Assembly (NCBI RefSeq): GCF_002260525.1
Contig: NZ_MRYI01000030.1
Coordinates: 1-35,190, forward strand
DNA from: Hahella sp. CCB-MM4
GTDB taxonomy: Bacteria; Pseudomonadota; Gammaproteobacteria; Pseudomonadales; Oleiphilaceae
Direction: 5' to 3'
Length of the DNA: 35,190 nucleotides
Shown: positions 5,041-20,406 of the stretch, piece by piece
How positions within the stretch are numbered: the stretch's first letter is position 1
How the letters are laid out: every line of letters begins with the position of its first letter
Made by a program: the position numbers and the translations under genes
Notes under the pieces: generated by a model
Database searches by the model: none
What the model was told of the DNA's origin: nothing
What the model saw: only the letters and a program-made list of their open reading frames with translations

Positions 5041-5787
5041 TTATAGAACCACCCCATACTTCTCAAGATAGGCTGCGCCGTGACAGTCATCCGGCCTGAG
5101 TATCACTTCACACTGCCTGCCACTACCAAACCACTGGGCCAACCAACTATGGAGTTGCCGGTAATCAGAAATTGGATCAGCACAGGATTGCTGGAGACTT
5201 AACCAGGTTAGATCTAACCGGGGCAGGTAGTTACTCAAGGTACAAAACTGTTGGATCAATTCAGATTGACCGACGATGCCCAGTCCCTGCTGAAATCGAT
5301 CAGCCATCACCGAAGGAATGCCCAGACATGGATAGAGTAAATATAGTCTTACATCCAGCGAAGCCAGCATCGGAATAAAGGAATCGGGCAAACGATTATT
5401 CAGGCTGAATAGGGCCAGGTGTGCCCCTGCACTACAGGCAAAGATATCAATGCGTCGATGAACGGTGAATTGTGTATCGTTATCGATGTTCTCGACCAGG
5501 TGCTGCAGCATTTCTATAAAATCCACAAAAGGACTTTCCCAATGCTGGCATTGCGTTGAGTATTGCAGCACAACAACCGATGAATAACTGCTCTGGAGCT
5601 GTTGGCGCAAGATTGATATTTCGGTTTCAGACACCACGTGGTAGCCCCCTCCCGGCACCACAACAGCAATAGGACGCTGCTCCGAACTCGGGCGGAACCA
5701 AGTCCTCAGACGAGGCAGCTCTCGCCCATCCCCCTCTCGGTCACTACTCTGGCGTAGTAAATGTTCGCTGTAACACAGGTCGTTCAT
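5041..5787 (-). CDS. Alpha/beta hydrolase of the BD-FAE/acetylesterase type
   Basis: This 248-residue protein has an alpha/beta-hydrolase layout. An oxyanion-loop motif PGGGYH lies at 45-50, the nucleophile elbow ACSAG has Ser119, an acidic residue is likely at Asp204 (CADPISDY), and a C-terminal His236 lies in DDCHGAAY. The elbow has Ala where Gly is usual. The start is set at ATG 5787; a longer frame begins with TTG 5808. Either way the gene overlaps the end of the PhyH gene by 44 or 65 bases, implying translational coupling. As the last gene of the radical SAM cluster it could release or trim the product by ester or amide hydrolysis. That role is inferred. Confidence 0.8.
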   Translation of the reverse strand: MNDLCYSEHLLRQSSDREGDGRELPRLRTWFRPSSEQRPIAVVVPGGGYHVVSETEISILRQQLQSSYSSVVVLQYSTQCQHWESPFVDFIEMLQHLVENIDNDTQFTVHRRIDIFACSAGAHLALFSLNNRLPDSFIPMLASLDVRLYLLYPCLGIPSVMADRFQQGLGIVGQSELIQQFCTLSNYLPRLDLTWLSLQQSCADPISDYRQLHSWLAQWFGSGRQCEVILRPDDCHGAAYLEKYGVVL

Positions 5788-6445
5788 CGGTAACACCGTC
5801 ACTTGCAAACAACCCGCTATCCAAAGGTAAATCAGTCAGATAAGCCGCATGGCGGGTCAACACCTGACGCCTTTCCGGGCGCTCTATACCCGGCTGGCAG
5901 AAGCTGATATTCAAATAGGGCCTGGATATGTCCGGATTAGATCCATGACGCCGGCAATGCCATATCTGTGACTCAATCACGAGCAGACTACCAGGCTTGA
6001 TAAGGGGACAAATTTCTCCGGCCATTGGACGGGTTTGATAACGACCGGGCCAACTGCGGACAACCCGTGTATTCCGGCTGGAAGGCAATATAACCAAGGG
6101 GCCGTTATGCTCACTTGCCCCCTCAGGATAAATCATCAAATGAATCATCTTAAACTGCCGTGCCGGGTCAGGTGACACACCATCATAATCGTGGTGCCAG
6201 AGTTTTTCTGGCCAACCCGGTGGGAGAATCACACCATTGGCATGATGAAAGAGCAGTTTTTTTCCCAGTATTTTACGGGCAATAGCAACGATGGGTGGCG
6301 AAACAATCAATTCACGAAAATACCCGGATTTCAGTAGCGATCGATCCCCCATGGTTTGGTTGGAAAGATGAGAACGCATGGCCGCGGTCTGATCGTTTGT
6401 GAAGAAACCTTCCAACAGATAAACCCCGGGAGCGAGAGACTTCAT
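5744..6445 (-). CDS. PhyH-family Fe(II)/2-oxoglutarate dioxygenase
   Basis: This is a 233-residue protein with the phytanoyl-CoA dioxygenase pattern. The iron ligands are probably His84 and Asp86 in WHHDYDG and the distal His163 in IWHCRRHGSN. Arg175 in ISRPYLNISF would bind 2-oxoglutarate. Such enzymes hydroxylate or desaturate small molecules or amino acid side chains. The start ATG 6445 has an AGGT element upstream and overlaps the aminotransferase stop as ATGA, so the two are translationally coupled. Fe/2OG oxygenases are known partners of some cyclophane-forming radical SAM enzymes, so peptide hydroxylation is a reasonable guess. The substrate is unknown. Confidence 0.85.
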   Translation of the reverse strand: MKSLAPGVYLLEGFFTNDQTAAMRSHLSNQTMGDRSLLKSGYFRELIVSPPIVAIARKILGKKLLFHHANGVILPPGWPEKLWHHDYDGVSPDPARQFKMIHLMIYPEGASEHNGPLVILPSSRNTRVVRSWPGRYQTRPMAGEICPLIKPGSLLVIESQIWHCRRHGSNPDISRPYLNISFCQPGIERPERRQVLTRHAAYLTDLPLDSGLFASDGVTDERPVLQRTFTTPE

Positions 6446-7767
6446 GGTCGTGTACCTGCTAAATTCTGCATCGCAAAGCACTCGATAAAATCCCGACAAC
6501 CGATAACCAGCTCTTCGATTTGCGATGCACTGTGGCTCGGGCTGATACAGCCCAGGAGCTGCCAGGGAAGAACCCCCCTTTCGAGCATGAACTGGCGGCC
6601 CTGTTGGTCACGTGTCGGAGCATCAACCAACTGAGCGTCCCAGTGATCCAGCACTCTGTCGGGAACTCTTGTGGCCGTCGGCTTAACCAGACGAATACTG
6701 ATGATCGGAAATTGACGGTCGCGACTCTGTGGAATGTGAATGTAACTTTCCCACTTACCCAAGTGCCGATCTATCAGTGCCCAGGTTAACTGCAACTGCT
6801 GATGAATTCGCTGAAATATGGGATCACCCAGGTCTCCCAAACAAAGACGGCAAAATGCATGGGCTCCAGCCAAACACAGGGGGTGCGCGGAGTAGGTTCC
6901 TCCTTCAAAAAAGCACTGTGCATGTTTGGCCTGCTTCATCAGCTCAACATCGCTGAGTAAAGCAGCAATCGGCAGACCTCCACCAAAGGCCTTGCCAATC
7001 ACCGCAATATCCGGTTTTACATCAAAGTGATACTGGAGGTACAACCCCGGATAACGGCGAAATCCGGTGACGATTTCATCAGCGATCAACAATGCCCCCG
7101 AATGATCACACAAGCGCCGCGCAGTTCTAATAAAAGCTTCAGAAACTGGATACATCCCACAGTTGCCAACCACCGGCTCAACGATCATCCCGGCTATTTG
7201 TGACCCATAACGATGAAAAAGGTCGGCCAGCTGTTGTTCATCGTTGTAGTCGAACAGCACTATCTGCTCGGCAAGGTGGGACGTAATCTGTGGTTGTTCG
7301 TATAGGTCAACGGCGGTTCCTTCCGGATATCTGACACCCTTGATAGACAAGAGGTTGCCTCCATGCCAGCCCCCTCGCCCCTTAAGAACAATAGCCCGTC
7401 CGGTGACGGTTTGGGCAATACGGATTGCGTAGTCCGTCGATACTGAACCACTGGTGGTAAAGCGGACACCATTGAAACCGGTCAACTGACGCAATAGATT
7501 CGCCAAGCCATGTTCCAACTCCAGGGGAACGCCAATCTGGTCAAACACGCCACTATCGAGTTGAGTTTGCAGCGCTTGCTTAATGTCCGGGTAGTTATGA
7601 CCCAATAGGCTGGCAAAGTGTCCCAACCAGAAATCACTGATCTGGTTTCCGTCAGCCAGTTTCAGATAGCTGCCGTCAGCACCGGTAATATCCGATAGCC
7701 CTGGAAACTGCCCTCGGCCGGAATGAGAGGAACCATCAAAGAGTGCGTTGCTTTTTACTATCGACAT
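6442..7767 (-). CDS. Class III PLP aminotransferase, GSA-aminomutase-like
   Basis: This 441-residue enzyme has the fold-type I class III layout. The Asp-Glu pair D230-E231 lies in LLIADEIVTGFRR, and the PLP lysine is K259 in VIGKAFGGGLP. The closest general resemblance is to glutamate-1-semialdehyde aminomutase-like proteins, but a true HemL is unlikely in this context. The segment TSGSVSTDYAIRIA replaces the common SGTEA motif, so the usual Glu is missing, hinting at an unusual substrate. ATG 7767 has AAGGAT upstream and lies inside the end of the radical SAM gene (32-base overlap). It probably tailors the peptide or a peptide-derived amino acid. The reaction is not known. Confidence 0.85.
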   Translation of the reverse strand: MSIVKSNALFDGSSHSGRGQFPGLSDITGADGSYLKLADGNQISDFWLGHFASLLGHNYPDIKQALQTQLDSGVFDQIGVPLELEHGLANLLRQLTGFNGVRFTTSGSVSTDYAIRIAQTVTGRAIVLKGRGGWHGGNLLSIKGVRYPEGTAVDLYEQPQITSHLAEQIVLFDYNDEQQLADLFHRYGSQIAGMIVEPVVGNCGMYPVSEAFIRTARRLCDHSGALLIADEIVTGFRRYPGLYLQYHFDVKPDIAVIGKAFGGGLPIAALLSDVELMKQAKHAQCFFEGGTYSAHPLCLAGAHAFCRLCLGDLGDPIFQRIHQQLQLTWALIDRHLGKWESYIHIPQSRDRQFPIISIRLVKPTATRVPDRVLDHWDAQLVDAPTRDQQGRQFMLERGVLPWQLLGCISPSHSASQIEELVIGCRDFIECFAMQNLAGTRP

Positions 7768-8902
7768 CGGAAAATCCTTGTTGTTGAAATCGATGCTGTC
7801 TAAAGCTTTCGATCACTTCCTGTGCCTGATGAAACAACTGATAAAGACTGGGGCAGGTGCTAGCCAAGCCAAACTCCTGACAGTTACGGTCCCAACGATG
7901 AGCCGGCAAGCCACCGCCACAGAGGTTCTGCAGGTCACATTGCCTGCAGGCTGGCGGTAATTGCGTCAAAGCATTGAGTTTTTGGAAACTCTGACTTGAG
8001 ATGACTTCGGGGATACCCGCTTCAAATACTGTCTTTCCAGTGGCGGTAAACTGGTCTCCGCAAATACGCAGGGTGTCGTCGAGGTGATAATCACCGTTAC
8101 TTTCAATCACCAGGGTCTCACGCGGATCAAATGGAATGGCTCTCTCAAATGGAGGACTTGCAGCAGACAGCAGGACATGATCAAAGTAGCGGAATTGACT
8201 GTTGGTATTGAGGTTCAAGTAGTGAAGAAAAGCTCTTTCAAGCCACTCACAGAGACGATGTTGATATAACTGAAAAGTTTCCAAATCTGAAAAATCTGAA
8301 CGCAGGATCAATGGCAAAAGCAAGTCGACCAGTGGAGGTTGAAATCCTTCCAGGTAATCCATCACCATTTCCGGGGAGCTGTCAGGGTCTATGACCGCCA
8401 GTATCCCTCCGTAGATATCCTGCCAGTCATGCTGCAGACAGCTTAAAAATTCTTTTACCTGTCGGGAGAAGGGTCTCCCCAAATGATCTACTCGCTGAAG
8501 ATCCGCAACACCTGGAGGTCCGTCACAAGACACAAACAGCTTCGCCCCTGCAGAACGCAACTGCTGCATTATGTCGGTATTGCACAGGATGCCATTGGTT
8601 TGGACAGATATCTGATATTCAATTCCGCGTGGCTTCAACGTTGTTTCAACACATGACATCCACTGCCCGAATCGACGTGCACCGGCGATAAAAGGCTCGC
8701 CCCCATGAAGCCCGATATGCAACCTTCCTGACCGCCCCAGCCAATAGTCGGCAATGCGCAAAAGACTTGCCTCAAAGGTTTCCAACGACAGAAATCGCGG
8801 CTGCCCTTTCCAGGTCTGGTCGTCCTTGTGATACACATAGCAGTACGAGCAATCGGCGTTGCATCTACTGGCTACCTTGAAGATGTAATTGGTAACCGCC
8901 AT
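7736..8902 (-). CDS. Radical SAM/SPASM peptide maturase, FxsB/cyclophane type
   Basis: This 388-residue enzyme has the radical SAM motif CNADCSYC (Cys14, Cys18, Cys21), a HGGEP SAM-binding motif, and a C-terminal SPASM-like region CRQCDLQNLCGGG...HRW with further cysteines for auxiliary Fe-S clusters. The CGGGLxAHR pattern and the early WKGQPRFLS segment resemble FxsB and related enzymes that join an aromatic ring to a nearby side chain in three-residue cyclophanes. The ATG at 8902 is chosen over the upstream one at 8932 because GGAG lies six bases before it. It is cytoplasmic. It is preceded by a small candidate precursor gene and overlaps the aminotransferase gene. The cyclophane assignment comes from family resemblance. 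Confidence 0.88.
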   Translation of the reverse strand: MAVTNYIFKVASRCNADCSYCYVYHKDDQTWKGQPRFLSLETFEASLLRIADYWLGRSGRLHIGLHGGEPFIAGARRFGQWMSCVETTLKPRGIEYQISVQTNGILCNTDIMQQLRSAGAKLFVSCDGPPGVADLQRVDHLGRPFSRQVKEFLSCLQHDWQDIYGGILAVIDPDSSPEMVMDYLEGFQPPLVDLLLPLILRSDFSDLETFQLYQHRLCEWLERAFLHYLNLNTNSQFRYFDHVLLSAASPPFERAIPFDPRETLVIESNGDYHLDDTLRICGDQFTATGKTVFEAGIPEVISSQSFQKLNALTQLPPACRQCDLQNLCGGGLPAHRWDRNCQEFGLASTCPSLYQLFHQAQEVIESFRQHRFQQQGFSDVDSKKQRTL

Positions 8903-9068
8903 CGTAGCTCCATTTGCAGATTGAAATGGCACAGGTACTAATACAGGTACTAGGGAAAAAAACTATCTACAATCGTCCTTAACCTGCAGATTTATTCGAA
9001 TGGTTGGCGGTGGCACGACAAGAGGACGGCTGATGAGTTACCCCATATCCAACCGTCCCTTCGCCAGA
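8903..9068 (-). promoter_or_regulatory. Spacer after precursor gene with weak hairpin
   Basis: This 166-base gap separates the precursor and radical SAM genes, much longer than the other junctions in the cluster, which overlap. A 6-bp stem (GGACGG at 9024-9029 with CCGTCC at 9053-9058, loop 23) starts about ten bases after the precursor stop and is followed on the minus strand by TCTTGT. It could be a weak attenuator that makes precursor mRNA more abundant than enzyme mRNA. A direct repeat of ACAGGTACTA lies at 8931-8952. Confidence 0.3.
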
Positions 9069-9308
9069 TTACTGACTGACTTCAGTTAGTCTGCCAACGG
9101 TGTCCTGGATATCCGGAGACGTGTAGGACCCGCCCAGATGGTGAGCTAAACGCTTGCTCACGGCACGGTTGAGTAGATCACGCAATTTTGCATTTCTCAC
9201 TGAACTGATGTCAGAAATGCTCAATTGTTCGATATCAGTGACAGACAGTTCGGAAACTTCTTTTTCTGTGGCACCGGCTGATATGGCCAGAATAGTTTCA
9301 GGAAGCAT
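9069..9308 (-). CDS. Candidate RiPP precursor peptide
   Basis: This gene encodes a 79-residue peptide. Residues 1-50 are an acidic, helical leader-like region (LPETILAISAGATEKEVSEL and following). The tail after LLNRAVSKR contains HH at 56-57, GG at 59-60 and a single aromatic Tyr62 in SYTSPD. ATG 9308 is chosen because AAGGAGA lies at ideal spacing; longer frames start at 9326 or 9383 without a good site. The gene lies first in the radical SAM cluster, under its own promoter. Tyr62-Thr63-Ser64 fits the aromatic-X-X three-residue pattern crosslinked by cyclophane enzymes and is close to the F-x-S motif of FxsA. The role as precursor is inferred from size, position and tail. Confidence 0.68.
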   Translation of the reverse strand: MLPETILAISAGATEKEVSELSVTDIEQLSISDISSVRNAKLRDLLNRAVSKRLAHHLGGSYTSPDIQDTVGRLTEVSQ

Positions 9309-9444
9309 GGCAATCTCCTTTTCCATGATTGTTTTGAAGTAAGCCAGGCCGACGACCCGGATTACCGGCAGCGCCATTCTCACAACTTTCCTTAGAGAAA
9401 CGCTGTCATTACTCCAATATCCGTAAATTGCAGGATCATCAGAG

Positions 9445-9548: not shown

Positions 9549-9617
9549 GTAGCGGTTATTTTGTTTGATTGGTAGAAGTTATTTTGTTTGATTGGTAGCG
9601 GTTATTTTGTTCGATTG
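9549..9617. repeat. Three tandem 23-bp repeats at the permease 3' end
   Basis: Three contiguous 23-base units begin at 9549, 9572 and 9595. Each starts GTAG(CG/AA)GTTATTTTG and ends GATTG, with two or three differences between units. The third unit contains the stop codon and last codons of the permease gene, so the array looks like tandem copies of the gene's end. It lies between the selenium operon and the precursor cluster. Confidence 0.9.
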
Positions 9618-11113
9618 AAGGAAGAAAAGCTTCCGCGCATTCGACGGGATAAACTATCCACAGCCATATTCAAAAGAGCCGTAACGACAATGAGTAGGAA
9701 AGCACGATCATAGCGGATTTCTTCAAACGCGGAATCAATGTAGAACCCAAGAGTCGCCACTCCCAGAATTCCCATAATGGCACTCTCTCGCAGGATCACT
9801 TCCCATCGATAAAATAGAAAAGCCAGCATTCCCGGGAAACGGCGGGGGGTTTCAACATAGGCGTAACGCTTAATACCTGTCGGATCATCTGGTCGGGTCA
9901 GCAGACTTTTACGCTCTGCATCACTGGCATTGGCCACCAGAAAAGCAATTAAGCCTCCATTGTGTAGTGCCAAAGCCAGTACGGCAGGCAAACCTGAAGG
10001 GCCGAATAAAAGCAGCAATACAAAGGCCAGCACCATCTCCGGCGTGGAACGCAGCACCAGCAAAAGGAACCGCCCCGGCCAGCGCATAATAGGGCCTGCC
10101 AATGATTGTGCTGCAAAGGGATAAGTCACCAATACCACGAGCCCGGACAAAACCACTGCGATTTGCGTCAACAGCAGAGTCTGCACCAGACCCGGCCATA
10201 TCTGCTTGCCGAACATCATTACGCTCCAGTCTCCCAGGGCCGACCAGTTGCCTTCACGCAAGGCGACAGGCCAGATATCCACGCTGATAAACTGCCATAG
10301 AGAACCGCCGCCACTGAAACCAATCGTTTCAGGCAACATCCATACAGCGGCGATCAAATAAAACGGGATCATTCTGGGCCGCAGCCAGAAGCGTATCGTG
10401 GCAATCAGCAATAGGAATGCCCAGAGCAAGGCTCCGGCTTCGCTATACTGTCCCTGCTTGAAGGCGGTTTCCAGATGAAAACCCAATGTCGGAAGTCCTA
10501 TAAACCCAAGAATGGCACTTGATCGTAGTGCACACTCAAAGCGGTAACGGGTATAGCTCGTCAAGGCAGGCCAGGACTGGGGAATTAGGGTGTAGGCGTA
10601 GCGCTTGAGTATACCGGCGGATGGAGGGATCGTCTGAGATGGCTGCGGCGATTGCTGTTCAAATATTTCCGCAAACACTTTGGCAAATACACCCGTGAAT
10701 GGAACGATAATGGCCAACAAACCGGTTGTCGCGCTGATTCCAAACAATTGCATGAAAATCAGCCCCCAGAATAATTCATGTACCGAGCGCACCGCCGCAC
10801 AAAGCAAGCGCACAGGCAGCCAGCCAAAAGCCATCGCCAACAGTAATCCCAGCGGGGCAGCCACCACGATGGCCAGAAAAGCAAATGCGATGGTATGCAA
10901 CAGAGCCAGTAATAAGGAAGATAGATCACTCCACCCTGGGGTTACCAGACCCAGACCAATGCGTGACAGCTCCTCCCAGGGGTCCACAGAATAAATATGG
11001 AAATCGACGCCGACCAGCGCCAGAAATGCCGCACCGATCATCAGAAGGCAGACACCATTCAGCTTACGGACAGTGGACTCCTGCTGTATCAGGAAACGAC
11101 GTACAGTAATCAT
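9602..11113 (-). CDS. Fused double permease of a PhnE-type ABC transporter, probable selenium-oxyanion importer
   Basis: This 503-residue integral membrane protein has two successive binding-protein-dependent permease domains, roughly 1-250 and 260-503. Each has several hydrophobic helices and a cytoplasmic coupling segment; FRYALRSSAILGF-like and WEVILRESAIMGILG stretches are the related halves. Phosphonate-type permeases are usually single-domain, so this fused form would supply both halves of the channel. ATG 11113 overlaps the ATPase stop (ATGA). Its neighbours, a PhnD-like binding protein, an ATPase, mnmH and selD, point to uptake of selenate or another selenium compound. Phosphonate or phosphite remains possible from the protein family alone. 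Confidence 0.85.
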   Translation of the reverse strand: MITVRRFLIQQESTVRKLNGVCLLMIGAAFLALVGVDFHIYSVDPWEELSRIGLGLVTPGWSDLSSLLLALLHTIAFAFLAIVVAAPLGLLLAMAFGWLPVRLLCAAVRSVHELFWGLIFMQLFGISATTGLLAIIVPFTGVFAKVFAEIFEQQSPQPSQTIPPSAGILKRYAYTLIPQSWPALTSYTRYRFECALRSSAILGFIGLPTLGFHLETAFKQGQYSEAGALLWAFLLLIATIRFWLRPRMIPFYLIAAVWMLPETIGFSGGGSLWQFISVDIWPVALREGNWSALGDWSVMMFGKQIWPGLVQTLLLTQIAVVLSGLVVLVTYPFAAQSLAGPIMRWPGRFLLLVLRSTPEMVLAFVLLLLFGPSGLPAVLALALHNGGLIAFLVANASDAERKSLLTRPDDPTGIKRYAYVETPRRFPGMLAFLFYRWEVILRESAIMGILGVATLGFYIDSAFEEIRYDRAFLLIVVTALLNMAVDSLSRRMRGSFSSFNRTK

Positions 11114-11850
11114 GAAGTGCGAATAACCCAACCGTCCGCCTCCGGAACCGTTGGCCTGGAAGTATCCTCGTCGGGTGATTTCTCTTGTTGGTAGTATCCA
11201 TCCAACTGTTCGCTGCTCATGGTATTTGCTGGACAGTCACAACAAATGCGTCCGTCACGCAAGACGATGAGACGGTCAAAATGCTCCAGTGCCAGGTGAC
11301 GATTGTGCAGGCTTACCACAGCAGTTTCATGCTGCTCCAGCATATGAGCTAATAATGCCTGAGCCTGAACGGGATCCACTGACGATACCGGCTCATCACC
11401 CAGAAATACCGGCTGCTGGCGAAACAAAGCGCGTCCCATCGAGACCCGCTGACGCTGGCCGCCCGACAGCCGGTCCACTGAGTGCCATAGCTTTTCATCG
11501 AGCCCCAAATGTTGTGCTATTTCCTTAATAGCACGGCGCTGCCGAGGTAGCGGGCGAATCAAATTCCACAATGCAGCCAGGGTTCCGATCCGATCCAACC
11601 CACCTATAAAAATATTCTGATACACCGATAACAGCTCCACCAATCCGCCTCCCTGAGGCTGAAGCGCACAGACCTGTGGTTGCTGCTGGTACAGCAGGGT
11701 GAGCAATGTGGATTTACCGGCACCGGATGGGCCGAGCAATGCCACCTTCTCCCCCTGGCAAATTGTCAGGGTGATATCGTCCAGCACCTGGTGTTCGCCG
11801 TAGCGAAACGACTGGCTCTTTAGCTGGAACAGAACCGAAGCGCTGCTCAT
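11110..11850 (-). CDS. ABC transporter ATP-binding protein, PhnC-like
   Basis: This 246-residue ATPase has Walker A GPSGAGKST at 40-48, signature LSGGQ at 128-132, Walker B with Asp152-Glu153 in FLGDEP, and a switch His in SLHNRHLAL. It would energise the adjacent fused permease at the inner face of the cytoplasmic membrane. ATG 11850 follows an AGGGTG element. The gene sits 58 bp after the binding-protein gene and overlaps the permease start. The context with selD and mnmH suggests it powers selenium uptake. Confidence 0.92.
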   Translation of the reverse strand: MSSASVLFQLKSQSFRYGEHQVLDDITLTICQGEKVALLGPSGAGKSTLLTLLYQQQPQVCALQPQGGGLVELLSVYQNIFIGGLDRIGTLAALWNLIRPLPRQRRAIKEIAQHLGLDEKLWHSVDRLSGGQRQRVSMGRALFRQQPVFLGDEPVSSVDPVQAQALLAHMLEQHETAVVSLHNRHLALEHFDRLIVLRDGRICCDCPANTMSSEQLDGYYQQEKSPDEDTSRPTVPEADGWVIRTS

Positions 11851-11908
11851 TCCTCTATCACCCTCATCATTCCTTCAAAACCCTATCATTCACCTGCGAT
11901 TAGTTGGT

Positions 11909-12796
11909 TTATTCATCCAACAGCCCGATGGCCTTGGCGGTGGCTTCAATCGGTGCATAGTCATCGTTACTGGCCGGAACGAAACTCTGTCGCGGAAAGC
12001 TCGCCAACAGTTCAGGTTTGTTCATATTCAATAACGCATCCCGGACTTTGGCTTTAAATCCATCTCCGAAACGCTCATCCACGTCACCGCGGATACTCCA
12101 TTGATAGTCAGGGTACGTTGGCGTGGTCCAGATCACCTGAACCTTGGTCGGATCAACCTTCCCTTCCTCCAGCTCACTTTCCCAGACAGAATAATTCACC
12201 GCCCCAACCTGATAGGCCCCCGACTGAACCTGAGCAATGGTGCGACTATGATCACCCGAGAACCCAACCCTGGAGAATATCTCCTCAGGTCCGGAACCAA
12301 ATTGCTGACGCAGATAAAATTCAGGCATCAGACGACCCGAAGTCGATCCCTTGGAGCCGAAGGTAAATGTTTTTCCTTTAATGGCTGCCGGGAGGCTTTC
12401 TCCCGGAGTGATACCTGCGCTCTTATTGGCAATGAAATAAGTCTTAAACAACTGATCTTCAAAGCCTTGGGCAAGTGCTTCAGAGCCGGGTACCAGACGG
12501 CGAGCCTGTACTCCGGACAACCCGCCAAACCACGCCAACTGAACCTGGTTATTGCGAAATGCGGTAATGGCCGCCGCATAGGATTTCACTGGGATATAGC
12601 TCACCTCGACACCCAACTGCTCATTGAGATATGCAGCGACTTTACCGAAACGTTCCTGCAGGTGAGATTCGTCCTGATCCGGAATGGCAGTAAATACGAA
12701 AGTTTCTGCCTGGGCGGCAGCTGACGCTATAAAGGTCAGCGCCAACAGACTACGTAGTATAGATACCCGGCGGGATATGCAACGCAGTATCGACAT
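11909..12796 (-). CDS. Periplasmic binding protein, PhnD-like, putative selenate transporter component
   Basis: This 295-residue protein begins with a Sec signal peptide (positively charged start, then LLALTFIASAAAQA, cleavage near residue 30). The mature part has the phosphate/phosphite/phosphonate-binding fold with segments typical of the family, such as FTAIPDQDE near the N-terminus, LAWFGGLSGVQAR, and TFGSKGSTSGRLMPEF, which would contact an oxyanion. Proteins of this group next to selD and mnmH are generally annotated as putative selenate-binding proteins. ATG 12796 has AAGGAG seven bases upstream. It would deliver the ligand to the fused permease. Confidence 0.88.
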   Translation of the reverse strand: MSILRCISRRVSILRSLLALTFIASAAAQAETFVFTAIPDQDESHLQERFGKVAAYLNEQLGVEVSYIPVKSYAAAITAFRNNQVQLAWFGGLSGVQARRLVPGSEALAQGFEDQLFKTYFIANKSAGITPGESLPAAIKGKTFTFGSKGSTSGRLMPEFYLRQQFGSGPEEIFSRVGFSGDHSRTIAQVQSGAYQVGAVNYSVWESELEEGKVDPTKVQVIWTTPTYPDYQWSIRGDVDERFGDGFKAKVRDALLNMNKPELLASFPRQSFVPASNDDYAPIEATAKAIGLLDE

Positions 12797-12861
12797 GGAA
12801 GCTCCTTGGATTGATGTTAGAAAATTGTGTTAAAAAAACTGTGTAAAAAAATGCTCACGAT

Positions 12862-14028
12862 TTAACTTCCACTTCCCTGTGAGGCAAGTGTTGAAGAGGT
12901 AGAACCATCTGCAGACCTCTTATGCGACGACAGATATTCGCGAACGGCCGCCCGGTCACCTCGATACACAATCAACTCAGATTTTTTACTTAGCTGATAG
13001 TCATACATTGGATCGTAATAGTCGACCAGCAACTGTGTTATCCAGTCTCGGTGCAGATCAGGTTTCCCTGTTCGATGAGCAACAAGGGCGTTTTCCAGCT
13101 GATCATTGATTTCACGGTAGCGCACCCCGCCCAGACGTTTACGCACTCGATATAGCGACTGAGACAGATCTTCTGCGAAAGCATCAAAACCGTCTTCCTC
13201 ACCCAACCGCTGCTGCCACTCAAGTTGTTTGTTAAGAATATAGTTGCGATAGCTGTGCTCAACTCTCTCTTCCAGTGACACTTCCAGCAGGACTATCGGG
13301 CTCTGCCCCATGACTTGCTGAAGCACCGGAGGCAAAGCACAACGTCCCACCAGACGACTCTCATCCTCCAGCAGAATAGACAGATTCCTGCTCAGCGCCT
13401 GATGTTCTGCTTTCAGCATGGCAACAGCCAAACCATTTTCGAAGTTAAGCTGGGTCGGCTGGCCGCCCGGTCGACGGCCAAAACTGGAGCCCCGGTGATG
13501 GGCCAGTGCTTCGAGATCCACGGCCTGTGGCAGTTCCTCAATCAGGGCAGTTTTGTTGCAGCCCGTGCGGCCACCTAAAATCAATAACGGTTGCCGGGTA
13601 CAAATTCGTTCAAATTCATCAATCAGGTAACGGCGCATGGCTTTATAGCCACCACCGATACGGGGGTAGTCACAACCGGCTTCGTGCATCCATTGCTGGC
13701 AGATCTGGCTTCGCAAGCCACCACGCCAGCAATATAAATAACCTTGTGGATGATGCCGGGCAAAATCAATCCAGGCATTCACCCGTTGCGATTTGACTTC
13801 CCCAATCACCAGTTGATGGCCAAGCTCAATCGCCGCCGCCTGTCCCTGCTGTTTGTAGCAAGTGCCCACCTGAGCCCTTTCTTCATTGGTCATCAGTGGA
13901 AGGCTGACACTGGTGGGGAACGCTCCACGCTCAAACTCTATCGGTGCCCGGGTATCGATCAGTGGAATATCGTTTAGAAAAATCGAGCGATAATCAGGAC
14001 CGTTTGGTTGCGCATCAGGACGGCTCAC
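12862..14028 (-). CDS. mnmH: tRNA 2-selenouridine synthase (MnmH/SelU)
   Basis: This 388-residue enzyme replaces sulfur with selenium at the wobble 2-thiouridine of certain tRNAs, using selenophosphate. The N-terminal rhodanese domain holds the catalytic Cys100 in [11 protein letters not shown]. The second half has a P-loop, GGRTGCNKT at 152-160, where an Asn stands in place of the usual Gly before Lys. The C-terminus extends past the usual end with a Ser-rich tail. The start is GTG at 14028, overlapping the selD stop (GTGA), with GAGGGA upstream inside selD. The gene order selD-mnmH is common in proteobacteria. Confidence 0.95.
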
Positions 14029-17468: not shown

Positions 17469-18185
17469 TCACGCCTGCTCTTCCGAATCCAACATTTCCT
17501 GATTCAGCAGAGGTCGGGATTGGCAACGCCCCTGGGTCATTGGGTAGTACTCAAGAAACTCAAGTTCGCCGGATTTATGATCGAGATGCAAGACTAACGT
17601 GTATGGGTTTTCACCCTCAACCTTGAGTTCTCTTACCGGATCATGGCCACTGGATAACAAATCGGTGACGTTGAATCCGTCGGGGAATCCCGGGGGGTGT
17701 TTCTTGCTGTTTAGTTCTTCAAACGACAGATCAGAAGTGACTTCAACGCTATCGAGAATAATCTTTCCGGGGAAACGGGGTTGAGGTCGCTTACCGGGAT
17801 ACTTCTCTCGTTCCCATACCTTAATATCCTTTTCCGTTACAGGCGAAATGCGCACCGCGATCCGCACGACACACCCATTTTGAGCGGCAGCTTCCACACC
17901 ATATTTCTTCCAGAAGACGTTGTTCGGCACATCTGGGGCCCAGGCATAGTCAGGAATTCCCAGAACATCGACCAGTTCGTCAGAAGAGCCCCCAGGGGTC
18001 AGGGGTTGTCCATTGATAATGACATTTCGCCCGTCAATTTCGAAGGTATACGGAGAGTCTGCTTCTGTTTGCTGGCAGCCAACGGCCAGCAAACAGAAGA
18101 CTCCGGTTATCGCCGTTTTGGCGAATCCATGATCTAAGATTTTGGTGAGTCTATGACCTAGGGTTTTTGCTCGGTTGAAAACCAC
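17469..18185 (-). CDS. Putative lipoprotein paired with the HET-C protein
   Basis: This is a 238-residue protein with an N-terminal basic segment, a hydrophobic stretch and a lipobox-like LLAVGC (Cys37), so it is probably a lipoprotein facing the periplasm. The remainder begins with TFEIDGRNVIINGQPLTPGG and is a beta-rich domain that is not confidently named; it contains few cysteines. The start is GTG at 18185, with AGG at suitable spacing, and overlaps the end of the HET-C gene by 28 bases, so the two are coupled. The arrangement (large effector-like protein followed by an overlapping lipoprotein) is like phospholipase-type effectors and their immunity lipoproteins. That role is an inference. 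Confidence 0.7.
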   Translation of the reverse strand: MVFNRAKTLGHRLTKILDHGFAKTAITGVFCLLAVGCQQTEADSPYTFEIDGRNVIINGQPLTPGGSSDELVDVLGIPDYAWAPDVPNNVFWKKYGVEAAAQNGCVVRIAVRISPVTEKDIKVWEREKYPGKRPQPRFPGKIILDSVEVTSDLSFEELNSKKHPPGFPDGFNVTDLLSSGHDPVRELKVEGENPYTLVLHLDHKSGELEFLEYYPMTQGRCQSRPLLNQEMLDSEEQA

Positions 18186-20332
18186 TGATTAAACCTATCG
18201 CTTACACTTTTGACAACATTGTCCTGAACCGTGGTCATTATATCCGCGTCAGGTGAGCCGGCTACCACACTCTGTAAAAGTTTTTGAGCCGATTGCTCGT
18301 TCATACCAGGCAAACCGGCAACTACTTGGTGTAAATCAGAGATGTATCCGGCTCTTTCTATCGCAGCTGAATTCTGCGGATTGGCAACCCATTCTGAGAT
18401 AACTGCGTGAACAGTGGCATTGGTAGAATCATCCGGATGCACGAAGAATCCGTTAACTTTATCGATTGCCTGATTAAGCGCAGCCTCGGCACCTTGCATA
18501 TCGCCCTGGGCTTTGAGGTCCCATGCCTGCTTCATGCTATCCACGATCTCTGTGGTTGCCATCGTCCCCAAATCAATCCCAAGACTATGGAAATGATGAT
18601 CATCATGATCCTTGGCCAGCTGACTATGGCTTGGCAATACGCTTTCAGAATCATATTGAATACTTTGCTGAATGGGAATGCCTTCAGCGGCACCGTTCAC
18701 CATCATATTCCCACCTTCATTCACCAGGCTTTCAATCTGGCGATAGGCATCCGGCACCAGCAACTTCATGGGAGCAAACGCCGCCATAATCAGATTCTTG
18801 GTATCGATGATTCCTTTGACATCAATGCCCCGCTCTTCAGCGAGAATTTCCACGACTTTGTCATAATATTTTAAGGTCGGTCTCTGCCCATCTTCCGCAG
18901 CAACACCCATCATACCCTGCCAGGAAGCCAATGATTCCTTCATCACCTGACCTGAATCCACAGCTCCAGGTTCTTTTGTGGAAAACATCGCTTCAGCCGC
19001 AGCAGGAGCAAGACTGTATCCGATGTCCGTATCGCCAAATCCCCCGGTGGTAAGCAGCGTCCGGTTTCCGCCATTGACTGACACCTGAGGCCCCCAGGTT
19101 TCAACGGTGTTGCCTTTTCCTGTACGGGACAGCTCCGAATTCACCGATATTTCGATGAAGTTGCTGTGGGCAAACAAGTCTTCCATCGTATGGGTCGCAT
19201 CACCCAGCATTCTCCGCCCTTCAGTAGTGGCGTCAGCCTCGAAAGCCTGTTTCAACATACCGATCATTCGATCGCGCGATTCCATAATATGATTGGAAAC
19301 ACCGGTTGCGGGATCGAAATTATTCTTTTGCTCTGCCATCGATGAATAGGGATTATCAATGTGCTCAACCTGCGAGTAAGCCCCAATATCTTTCGCCGTA
19401 ATATCCTGACCGAAGTCCACTTTGGCCTTAATGCGAATACCTTCAGCAATCGTTGCCAAAAGATCATCGGTAAGCGCTTTTTCAATTTGCTCCAAGCCAG
19501 GTTTACTGGCGGGATCCAATCCCAAATCCTTTACCCAATTGGGATCATTCTGGACGTGAGGCGCTACAACTTTGGAGACCTTTGCAACACCGGCCGGGTC
19601 ATAGGCATTCGACATATCACGAAGCCAGTTTCCAAAATAGACTTCCTTGCTTAGCTGGTTCAGATTAGCGTTGTCACCAACAGGATTACGCCAGGCAGAA
19701 TATACGGAATCCGTCACTATCGCTTTGTGTCCGTTGGCCTCAAAAAATTCCAGCGACCCTTTCTTGCCATCATGCTGGATTTCGCCATCAGCCACAGCAA
19801 AACCACCAATATCCCGCGCAAACTTAGCACCTTCATCCGCACGAGCGTCACCGCCGATGTCGGAATAGTGATTACGCAGCAATGAATCAATATGGTGCCC
19901 GGTTTCCTCCGCTATGGCTCTCTGTTGCAACTGTTCACTTCCAGGCGCTGATTGATAGGCCAAGTCTGAGGAGATCAGGATTTGCTGGCGGCTTTGATCG
20001 TAGGCGGCAAGCGCATCTCCTAACCCTGAATAAGCGACAATAACCGGTGCTTCTGGCATCTGGCCTTTCAGGATGTCCTGGCGCAGGCTCTCATAGGCAT
20101 TTGTCGGTATGTCGCTTCCAAATATGGGGCTCAATGTTTCCGTAAACCTTGATGTCCCCTGACCGGCGAGATCCTTGAGATTTTGGGAAATATTCGATCC
20201 GCTGTCGCTCCCTATTCCTCTCTCTATTCCACTTGCTATGCCACTCTCGATTCCATTCCCAATTCCGTTCCCTGATCCGGAAACTGATGAGGAATTCGTG
20301 GTATCAGAACCGCTGACTGTGTTGACATTCAT
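18158..20332 (-). CDS. HET-C domain protein, possible effector or toxin
   Basis: This is a 724-residue protein without a signal peptide. Residues 20-46 are a low-complexity Gly/Ile/Ser tract (GNGIGNGIESGIASGIERG). A motif AEETGHHID (Glu142-His147) resembles a zinc-protease-like helix. The HET-C region starts with VYFGNWLRDMSNAYD (231-245) and includes DATHTMEDLFAHSNF (His381, Glu384, Asp385, His389), the probable metal ligands shared with phospholipase C/S1-nuclease folds; a His-rich DHDDHHFHS follows near 590. ATG 20332 has AGGTG upstream. Known HET-C domains are found in fungal incompatibility and bacterial toxin-like proteins. Lipid or nucleic acid hydrolysis is possible but unproven. Confidence 0.78.
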   Translation of the reverse strand: MNVNTVSGSDTTNSSSVSGSGNGIGNGIESGIASGIERGIGSDSGSNISQNLKDLAGQGTSRFTETLSPIFGSDIPTNAYESLRQDILKGQMPEAPVIVAYSGLGDALAAYDQSRQQILISSDLAYQSAPGSEQLQQRAIAEETGHHIDSLLRNHYSDIGGDARADEGAKFARDIGGFAVADGEIQHDGKKGSLEFFEANGHKAIVTDSVYSAWRNPVGDNANLNQLSKEVYFGNWLRDMSNAYDPAGVAKVSKVVAPHVQNDPNWVKDLGLDPASKPGLEQIEKALTDDLLATIAEGIRIKAKVDFGQDITAKDIGAYSQVEHIDNPYSSMAEQKNNFDPATGVSNHIMESRDRMIGMLKQAFEADATTEGRRMLGDATHTMEDLFAHSNFIEISVNSELSRTGKGNTVETWGPQVSVNGGNRTLLTTGGFGDTDIGYSLAPAAAEAMFSTKEPGAVDSGQVMKESLASWQGMMGVAAEDGQRPTLKYYDKVVEILAEERGIDVKGIIDTKNLIMAAFAPMKLLVPDAYRQIESLVNEGGNMMVNGAAEGIPIQQSIQYDSESVLPSHSQLAKDHDDHHFHSLGIDLGTMATTEIVDSMKQAWDLKAQGDMQGAEAALNQAIDKVNGFFVHPDDSTNATVHAVISEWVANPQNSAAIERAGYISDLHQVVAGLPGMNEQSAQKLLQSVVAGSPDADIMTTVQDNVVKSVSDRFNQWFSTEQKP

Positions 20333-20406
20333 TCTGTTCACCTAACATACATCGCAACTAATTTGTCACATAATACGGGGTGATACTGTTCAACAAAGCT
20401 GGCTTG

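Follow-up and report, generated by a model that had tools for sequence, protein, structure and literature searches.

The 35,190-nt window analysed here, the whole stretch of contig NZ_MRYI01000030.1 of Hahella sp. CCB-MM4 to which all window coordinates refer, contains on its minus strand a unit of five genes (positions 5041-9308) encoding a small peptide, a radical S-adenosylmethionine (SAM) enzyme, a class III aminotransferase, a PhyH-type oxygenase and an alpha/beta hydrolase. We give a probability of about one half to the view that these genes make a triceptide-type ribosomally synthesized and post-translationally modified peptide (RiPP), a figure that covers the whole explanation including its conjectural last steps. 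Its foundation is firmer, in that the locus very probably combines a peptide precursor with a radical SAM enzyme of the cyclophane-forming type. Cyclophane peptides made by radical SAM enzymes provide strained macrocycles and, to our knowledge, amine-installing chemistry on ribosomal peptides is known mainly from daptides. A synthase, an oxygenase and an aminotransferase in one operon would give access to amine-bearing crosslinks by a short route that can be tested, and, as we found no such aminotransferase in related peptide pathways, the peptide produced may represent a new type of modification.

Precursor peptide and predicted crosslink

All five genes are read in a single direction, from 9308 to 5041, in the order peptide, radical SAM enzyme, aminotransferase, PhyH and hydrolase. 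The initial annotation had described five same-strand genes headed by a 79-residue peptide, with overlaps of 4 to 44 bases among the remaining ones, and our count agrees: the radical SAM and aminotransferase frames share 32 bases (7736-7767), the aminotransferase and PhyH frames 4 bases (6442-6445), and the PhyH and hydrolase frames probably 44 bases, the value obtained with the hydrolase start at 5787 (65 bases with a start at 5808). A gap of 136 bases separates the peptide gene from the longest radical SAM frame.

The peptide (79 aa; 9069-9308, minus strand) matched no Pfam, NCBIfam or PHROG family. Among 72,556 plasmid records (7.3 Gb), only one relative was retrieved (E = 3e-8, 40% identity), encoded on plasmid NZ_CP155075.1 of Paraburkholderia sp. 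PREW-6R beside the nearest radical SAM relative found. The two peptides align with a score of 134; when the relative was shuffled 5000 times, no shuffle came near this value and the best one scored 52. Because a relative was found at this E-value in 7.3 Gb and no shuffle attained the observed score, the peptide is, judging from these comparisons, more than a chance reading frame. A strong ribosome-binding site, AAAAGGAG (9315-9322, minus strand), is read ahead of its ATG, and the Paraburkholderia precursor has AGGAGG upstream.

Conservation between the two aligned precursors is best at Leu54-Pro65 (8 of 12 residues identical; the preceding part has 21 identities in 53 positions and the following part 3 in 11), and we designate this segment, LAHHLGGSYTSP (residues 54-65; 9114-9149, minus strand), the conserved core. 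The motif common to both peptides, LxxHxGG(S/T)YTSP, is internal: beyond it the two precursors continue for another 14 and 11 residues. According to PMC11002830, the crosslinks made by triceptide enzymes run from an aromatic residue to the beta-carbon of the residue at i+2 (the i to i+2 rule), MscB linking Phe to the C-beta of Ser and YhhB linking the C3 of Tyr to the C-beta of Arg. Both precursors contain such a combination of an aromatic residue and a residue with a C-beta in the triplet YTS, the codons of which, Tyr62-Thr63-Ser64, occupy positions 9117-9125 of the minus strand, and the conserved His57 has Gly at i+2, that is, no beta-carbon there. As Tyr62-Thr63-Ser64 fits the rule and His57 is followed by Gly at i+2, we predict a Tyr62-Ser64 cyclophane crosslink; this site is rather probable, both the type of crosslink and its position being drawn from published relatives. 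The motif alone is not diagnostic, as 53 genomic contig stretches fitted one of the patterns used and none encodes a relative.

Radical SAM enzyme and its nearest relative

The second gene (7736-8902, minus strand; PF04055, 7.4e-8) encodes a SPASM radical SAM enzyme of 388 aa from the ATG at 8902, or 398 aa from the GTG at 8932. The former is most likely the true start, judged by the GGAG ahead of it and by its fit to the start of the Paraburkholderia homologue, which is better than that of the listed 8932. The CGGGLxAHR pattern reported in the initial annotation reads CGGGLPAHR, and C329, C332, C338 and C351, which we take to be the SPASM cysteines, are conserved in the relative, with CGGG in the window versus CRGG in Paraburkholderia. 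The best NCBIfam models are YhhB (NF041707, 240.5 bits) and FxsB (TIGR04269, 225.4 bits), the latter being the family of which MscB is a member, and the closest solved structure is that of ChlB (5.4e-51), all of which bears out the original assignment to a cyclophane-forming class. The FxsB-like label given at the same time survives loosely, at the level of the superfamily, and does not hold for the family, as the scores are far below both curated cut-offs (445 bits for YhhB and 370 bits for FxsB). Since its best models are YhhB and FxsB and it falls short of both, the enzyme is, by its scores, inside the cyclophane-forming YhhB/FxsB superfamily and outside each curated family. Matches to PADLOC viperin models (35 and 24 bits) and to the general radical SAM family of PHROGs (86.1 bits) were rejected as superfamily background.

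A similar radical SAM enzyme occurs on 43 plasmid records, and NZ_CP155075.1 has the best E-value and bit score among the 20 listed. Across the 15 distinct places compared, the Paraburkholderia enzyme (33% identity to that of the window) scores 207 bits and the next one 171 bits, and in a 26-row tree the window and Paraburkholderia enzymes form one clade (support 99/97). On the plasmid (region L004, 9616-16469), an 80-aa peptide, the radical SAM enzyme and a BD-FAE hydrolase follow in succession, unlike in the window, where the hydrolase comes last, after the aminotransferase and PhyH. Upstream of the Paraburkholderia peptide lie genes for a HAD phosphatase, a TauD Fe/2-oxoglutarate (2OG) oxygenase and an ArnA-like/DegT aminotransferase fusion; a search with the TauD protein found itself and one Arthrobacter record only. 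By sequence comparison, the precursor, the radical SAM enzyme and, weakly, the hydrolase appear to be common to both loci by homology. The expectation that the small gene would be kept beside homologues of the radical SAM enzyme thus holds for the nearest homologue found and fails for the other 14 of the 15 places (E = 1e-4; several with flanks of 1.5 kb only).

Searches in genomes gave few further matches. The precursor profile hit 2 of 369 genomes of the class at E = 0.01: the genome of the window itself and a second one (G772) in which the match (E = 0.007, within a 347-aa frame) is taken for chance, and 0 of 385 genomes of the class of G965 at E = 0.001. The radical SAM enzyme was found in 2 of 58 relatives (E = 1e-30), 2 of 390 genomes of the order (E = 1e-40) and 12 of 398 genomes of the phylum (E = 1e-25), the window's genome included in each count. 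Scans of genomic contigs with the radical SAM enzyme and with the precursor pair revealed no relatives, and two scans of viral contigs found nothing; these were short-pattern scans and weak evidence of absence, and the negative searches in general rest on short patterns or genome samples.

Aminotransferase, oxygenase and hydrolase

The third gene (6442-7767, minus strand) encodes a 441-aa class III pyridoxal phosphate-dependent aminotransferase (PF00202, Aminotran_3, 1.2e-50). HemL, the glutamate-1-semialdehyde aminomutase, was rejected as its identity: the protein reaches 194 bits against the HemL model TIGR00713 (cut-off 527.3), and the HemL of this genome lies on another contig (C84) and scores 637.8 bits. 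Solved relatives besides HemL include D-phenylglycine aminotransferase and a beta-transaminase.

The fourth gene (5744-6445, minus strand, from the ATG at 6445) encodes a PhyH-type Fe/2OG oxygenase (PF05721, 6.8e-9). In an alignment of the window protein with three Streptomyces homologues, H83, D85, H162 and R174 (alignment numbering) are invariant in all four; we take the first three to be the HxD...H iron triad and R174 to be the 2OG-binding arginine. The aligned sequence of the enzyme thus retains the residues by which iron and 2-oxoglutarate would be bound. A PhyH profile matched 6 of 349 genomes of the phylum at E = 1e-10, the window included, and the five others, at 42.6-50.4 bits versus 306.9, are taken for general PhyH proteins, as judged by score.

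PhyH relatives were found on 5 plasmid records at E = 0.001, the top scores belonging to three Streptomyces plasmids. On two of the three viewed, PhyH lies 0.8 and 1.3 kb from a related aminotransferase (34% identity to that of the window), and no radical SAM enzyme is listed within 10 kb in their incomplete gene tables. One of these aminotransferases, searched at E up to 1e-100, finds itself and the other one only (2 records). Such loci hint at an oxidation-plus-amination pair that is independent of the radical SAM enzyme. The two genes stand together at 9785-12723 in one region (L030), with DUF6309 genes between them, and at 9779-13272 in the other (L029).

The last gene (5041-5787, minus strand) encodes an alpha/beta hydrolase with several possible starts, of about 248 aa from the ATG at 5787 or 255 aa from the listed TTG at 5808. 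Its Pfam match to BD-FAE (9.5e-4, 19.2 bits) is below the threshold of 26.8, and a PDB match is esterase/lipase-like (2.1e-4). A fold prediction of the hydrolase alone (mean predicted local distance difference test score 47.6) was too poor for a structure search and was not used.

Surroundings of the unit

Promoter-like sites (4 observed versus 5.3 in shuffles) and terminator-like sites (4 versus 4.6) show no excess, an Rfam scan gave no match and a tRNA scan found none. Beyond the unit, an ABC (ATP-binding cassette) transporter is encoded at 9602-12796; its binding protein is of the selenate type (TIGR04553, 401 bits), and its permease is one 509-aa protein that contains two PhnE stretches. 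At 9549-9617, a 23-base unit occurs three times in tandem (89% match), the repeats extending over the stop codon of the gene for this PhnE-type permease. Further away, at 18158-20341, a 727-aa Het-C domain protein (4.1e-21) adjoins a DUF7738 protein. A coenzyme A transferase (E = 1e-120, a strict setting) and the PhnE permease (E = 1e-20) were each sought in six other species of the genus and found in none, searches that had no positive control and are therefore uninformative; no empty site could be shown by comparison within the genus.

Proposed pathway and alternatives

The genes, their overlaps, the radical SAM cysteines, the iron residues of PhyH and the retention of precursor and radical SAM enzyme in one distant relative can be read from the DNA itself. 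In the pathway that we propose, the leader (residues 1-53) would be recognized by the radical SAM enzyme, which would join the ring of Tyr62 to the beta-carbon of Ser64 (-2.016 Da). A crosslink at Ser would leave a secondary benzylic alcohol, which sets it apart from the crosslinks at Arg, Asn, Asp or Ala in other members. PhyH would then convert this carbinol to an aryl ketone (running total -4.031 Da), the aminotransferase would convert the ketone to an amine (running total -3.000 Da), and the hydrolase would trim the peptide, possibly cutting behind Pro65. What these last three enzymes act on, and in which order, is our conjecture, and the exchange of oxygen for nitrogen on the crosslinked carbon by way of a ketone formed on the intact peptide, giving an alpha,beta-diamino acid bridge, is a tentative and, on balance, rather unlikely part of it. 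The conserved YTS triplet nevertheless gives a sharp prediction of position and mass.

We know of no cyclophane bridged through an alpha,beta-diamino acid, and our literature searches, which were aimed at enzymes and not at structure, named none. Likewise, no pathway was found in searches for an aminotransferase with cyclophane peptides or for PhyH with a radical SAM enzyme and a RiPP, most subscription papers lying outside their scope. Partial precedents exist for the single steps: in PMC12670281, a class III aminotransferase converts a peptide ketone to an amine in daptides, and in PMC12636437, 2OG-dependent hydroxylation in the ChlB system requires prior formation of the cyclophane. Enzymes dependent on 2OG also stand beside other cyclophane synthases, such as YhhC in Vibrio and the HEXXH partners.

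Several observations weigh against the proposed pathway. The precursor is known from two loci only, the branch of the window radical SAM enzyme is long (2.28), making its placement less sure, and among the five genes there is no exporter and no clear peptidase. The initial annotation had looked to a conserved order of precursor, radical SAM enzyme, aminotransferase and PhyH; this order is not conserved, as nothing in the Paraburkholderia cluster matches the aminotransferase or PhyH of the window, and other enzymes lie upstream of its peptide instead. Oxygenase and aminotransferase functions appear to recur there through other families, which is suggestive only, because the ArnA-like/DegT fusion resembles an enzyme of sugar-nucleotide metabolism: an aminotransferase joined to an ArnA-like sugar-nucleotide domain is easier to reconcile with an amino sugar than with a ketone on a peptide. 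Between the two hydrolases identity is 33% over 94 aa, and because a search of all plasmids with the window hydrolase gives no match at E = 0.001, not even on the Paraburkholderia record, the link between them beyond the general fold is weak. Finally, no aminotransferase is listed within 10 kb on the third Streptomyces plasmid viewed, and the window aminotransferase scores 141 bits to the Streptomyces ones versus 185 bits to a Halomarina protein.

A triceptide with separate tailoring, in which the YTS triplet is crosslinked, PhyH hydroxylates a core residue and the aminotransferase acts on another carbonyl, for instance at the peptide end as in daptides, is possible, though on the unlikely side. 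The 2OG-dependent hydroxylation that follows cyclophane formation in PMC12636437 would suit it, as would the YhhC annotated in Vibrio and the match of the aminotransferase to daptide family NF041821 (2.7e-34). That match, however, amounts to 118.5 bits, far under the cut-off of 450, and no DapB/DapC-type oxidative decarboxylase was recognized in the five genes, leaving no evident source of a terminal ketone.

It is unlikely that the locus serves two functions, a crosslinked peptide on the one hand and on the other a small molecule (an amine or amino sugar) made by the aminotransferase, PhyH and hydrolase, whether joined to the peptide or separate. The Streptomyces pairs of PhyH and aminotransferase with no radical SAM enzyme listed nearby argue for this, as do the ArnA-like/DegT fusion and HAD phosphatase of the Paraburkholderia cluster; yet the overlaps tightly couple the radical SAM, aminotransferase, PhyH and hydrolase genes, and no glycosyltransferase was seen among the five window and six Paraburkholderia proteins scanned.

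In the biosynthesis of pyrroloquinoline quinone (PQQ) and mycofactocin, a peptide scaffold is consumed: a unit is excised from it and converted further as a free small molecule. An analogous fate for the crosslinked Tyr-Ser, excised and transaminated after release, would agree with the internal position of the motif, with 14 and 11 residues following it, and with the presence of a hydrolase; we regard it as very unlikely. No PQQ or mycofactocin maturase is among the 25 of 52 NCBIfam matches listed, and no dedicated peptidase family was recognized. The initial annotation had come close to this idea in proposing transamination of a released residue, for which we found no support; we prefer a ketone on the crosslinked peptide, a possibility no less open. 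That the small protein is a partner or regulator of a radical SAM enzyme that matures another protein, as the distant relationship to the sulfatase maturase family (95.6 bits) might suggest, is scarcely credible given that a precursor gene directly precedes the radical SAM gene in all five loci whose genes are named (haaA, yhhA three times and xyeA) and that the conserved core holds the expected aromatic-x-Ser triplet.

Comparison with known systems

Eleven plasmid loci of radical SAM relatives besides Paraburkholderia, out of the 43 records, were viewed with 4-kb or 6-kb flanks; two further regions, L028 and the unannotated L032, were left out of the analysis. The neighbours listed include yhhA, haaA or xyeA precursors, YhhC, HEXXH proteins, GNAT proteins, glycosyltransferases and transporters, and no aminotransferase is annotated in their incomplete gene tables. 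On a Rhodococcus sp. DMU1 plasmid (L033, 3559-6270), a small gene with PYDKHTSNHLRN, perhaps an unrecognized triceptide-type precursor, precedes a radical SAM gene and a separate HEXXH protein, and on a Spirosoma plasmid (L042, 1-5197) two small GG-motif genes stand before the radical SAM gene, and a gene for a prolyl oligopeptidase lies some 3.5 kb upstream.

The window unit resembles the yhh clusters (YhhA, YhhB, and YhhC or a HEXXH domain) in having a small precursor directly before a related radical SAM enzyme and a 2OG-dependent partner. It differs from them in its radical SAM score (240 bits against a cut-off of 445), in having an aminotransferase, which is annotated in none of the loci viewed, and in its core, HxGGSYTSP with a follower, whereas the YhhA cores, which read SYDRMHHRHNRS or AYDRTHNRHNRG, end in YDRxHxRHNR at the C terminus. 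Another species of the same genus carries a peptide with a YhhA core before a long YhhB-like frame, and because of this pairing the window unit is distinct from the yhh-type unit within the genus. In that species (L026, 7940-10272), the core SYDRMHHRHNRS precedes a YhhB-like frame of 710 aa, the second half of which has HEYRH, a HEXXH motif noted by eye.

The system of ChlB, a radical SAM enzyme with an alpha-ketoglutarate-HEXXH domain, has the closest solved radical SAM structure and, in PMC12636437, a crosslink followed by 2OG-dependent oxidation, the succession proposed here. In the window, by contrast, the oxygenase belongs to the PhyH family and is a separate protein. We know of no aminotransferase in the ChlB system. 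Daptides (DapD/MpaD) share with the window a class III aminotransferase, which in daptides turns a ketone into an amine on a peptide (PMC12670281); unlike them, the window has no recognized DapB, DapC or methyltransferase, its peptide does not end in Thr, and its aminotransferase scores under the daptide cut-off.

The Paraburkholderia cluster is the counterpart with a homologous, adjacent precursor and radical SAM enzyme and a weakly similar hydrolase, and has TauD, HAD and the ArnA-like/DegT fusion where the window has PhyH and the class III aminotransferase. Finally, the FxsB/MscB triceptides are matched in radical SAM similarity (225 bits) and in the aromatic-x-Ser triplet. The FxS core of these triceptides is terminal, whereas the window core is internal and has Tyr for Phe, and the radical SAM score is below 370. 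A YxS crosslink, if true, would connect the Tyr-based and Ser-based branches of the triceptide enzymes.

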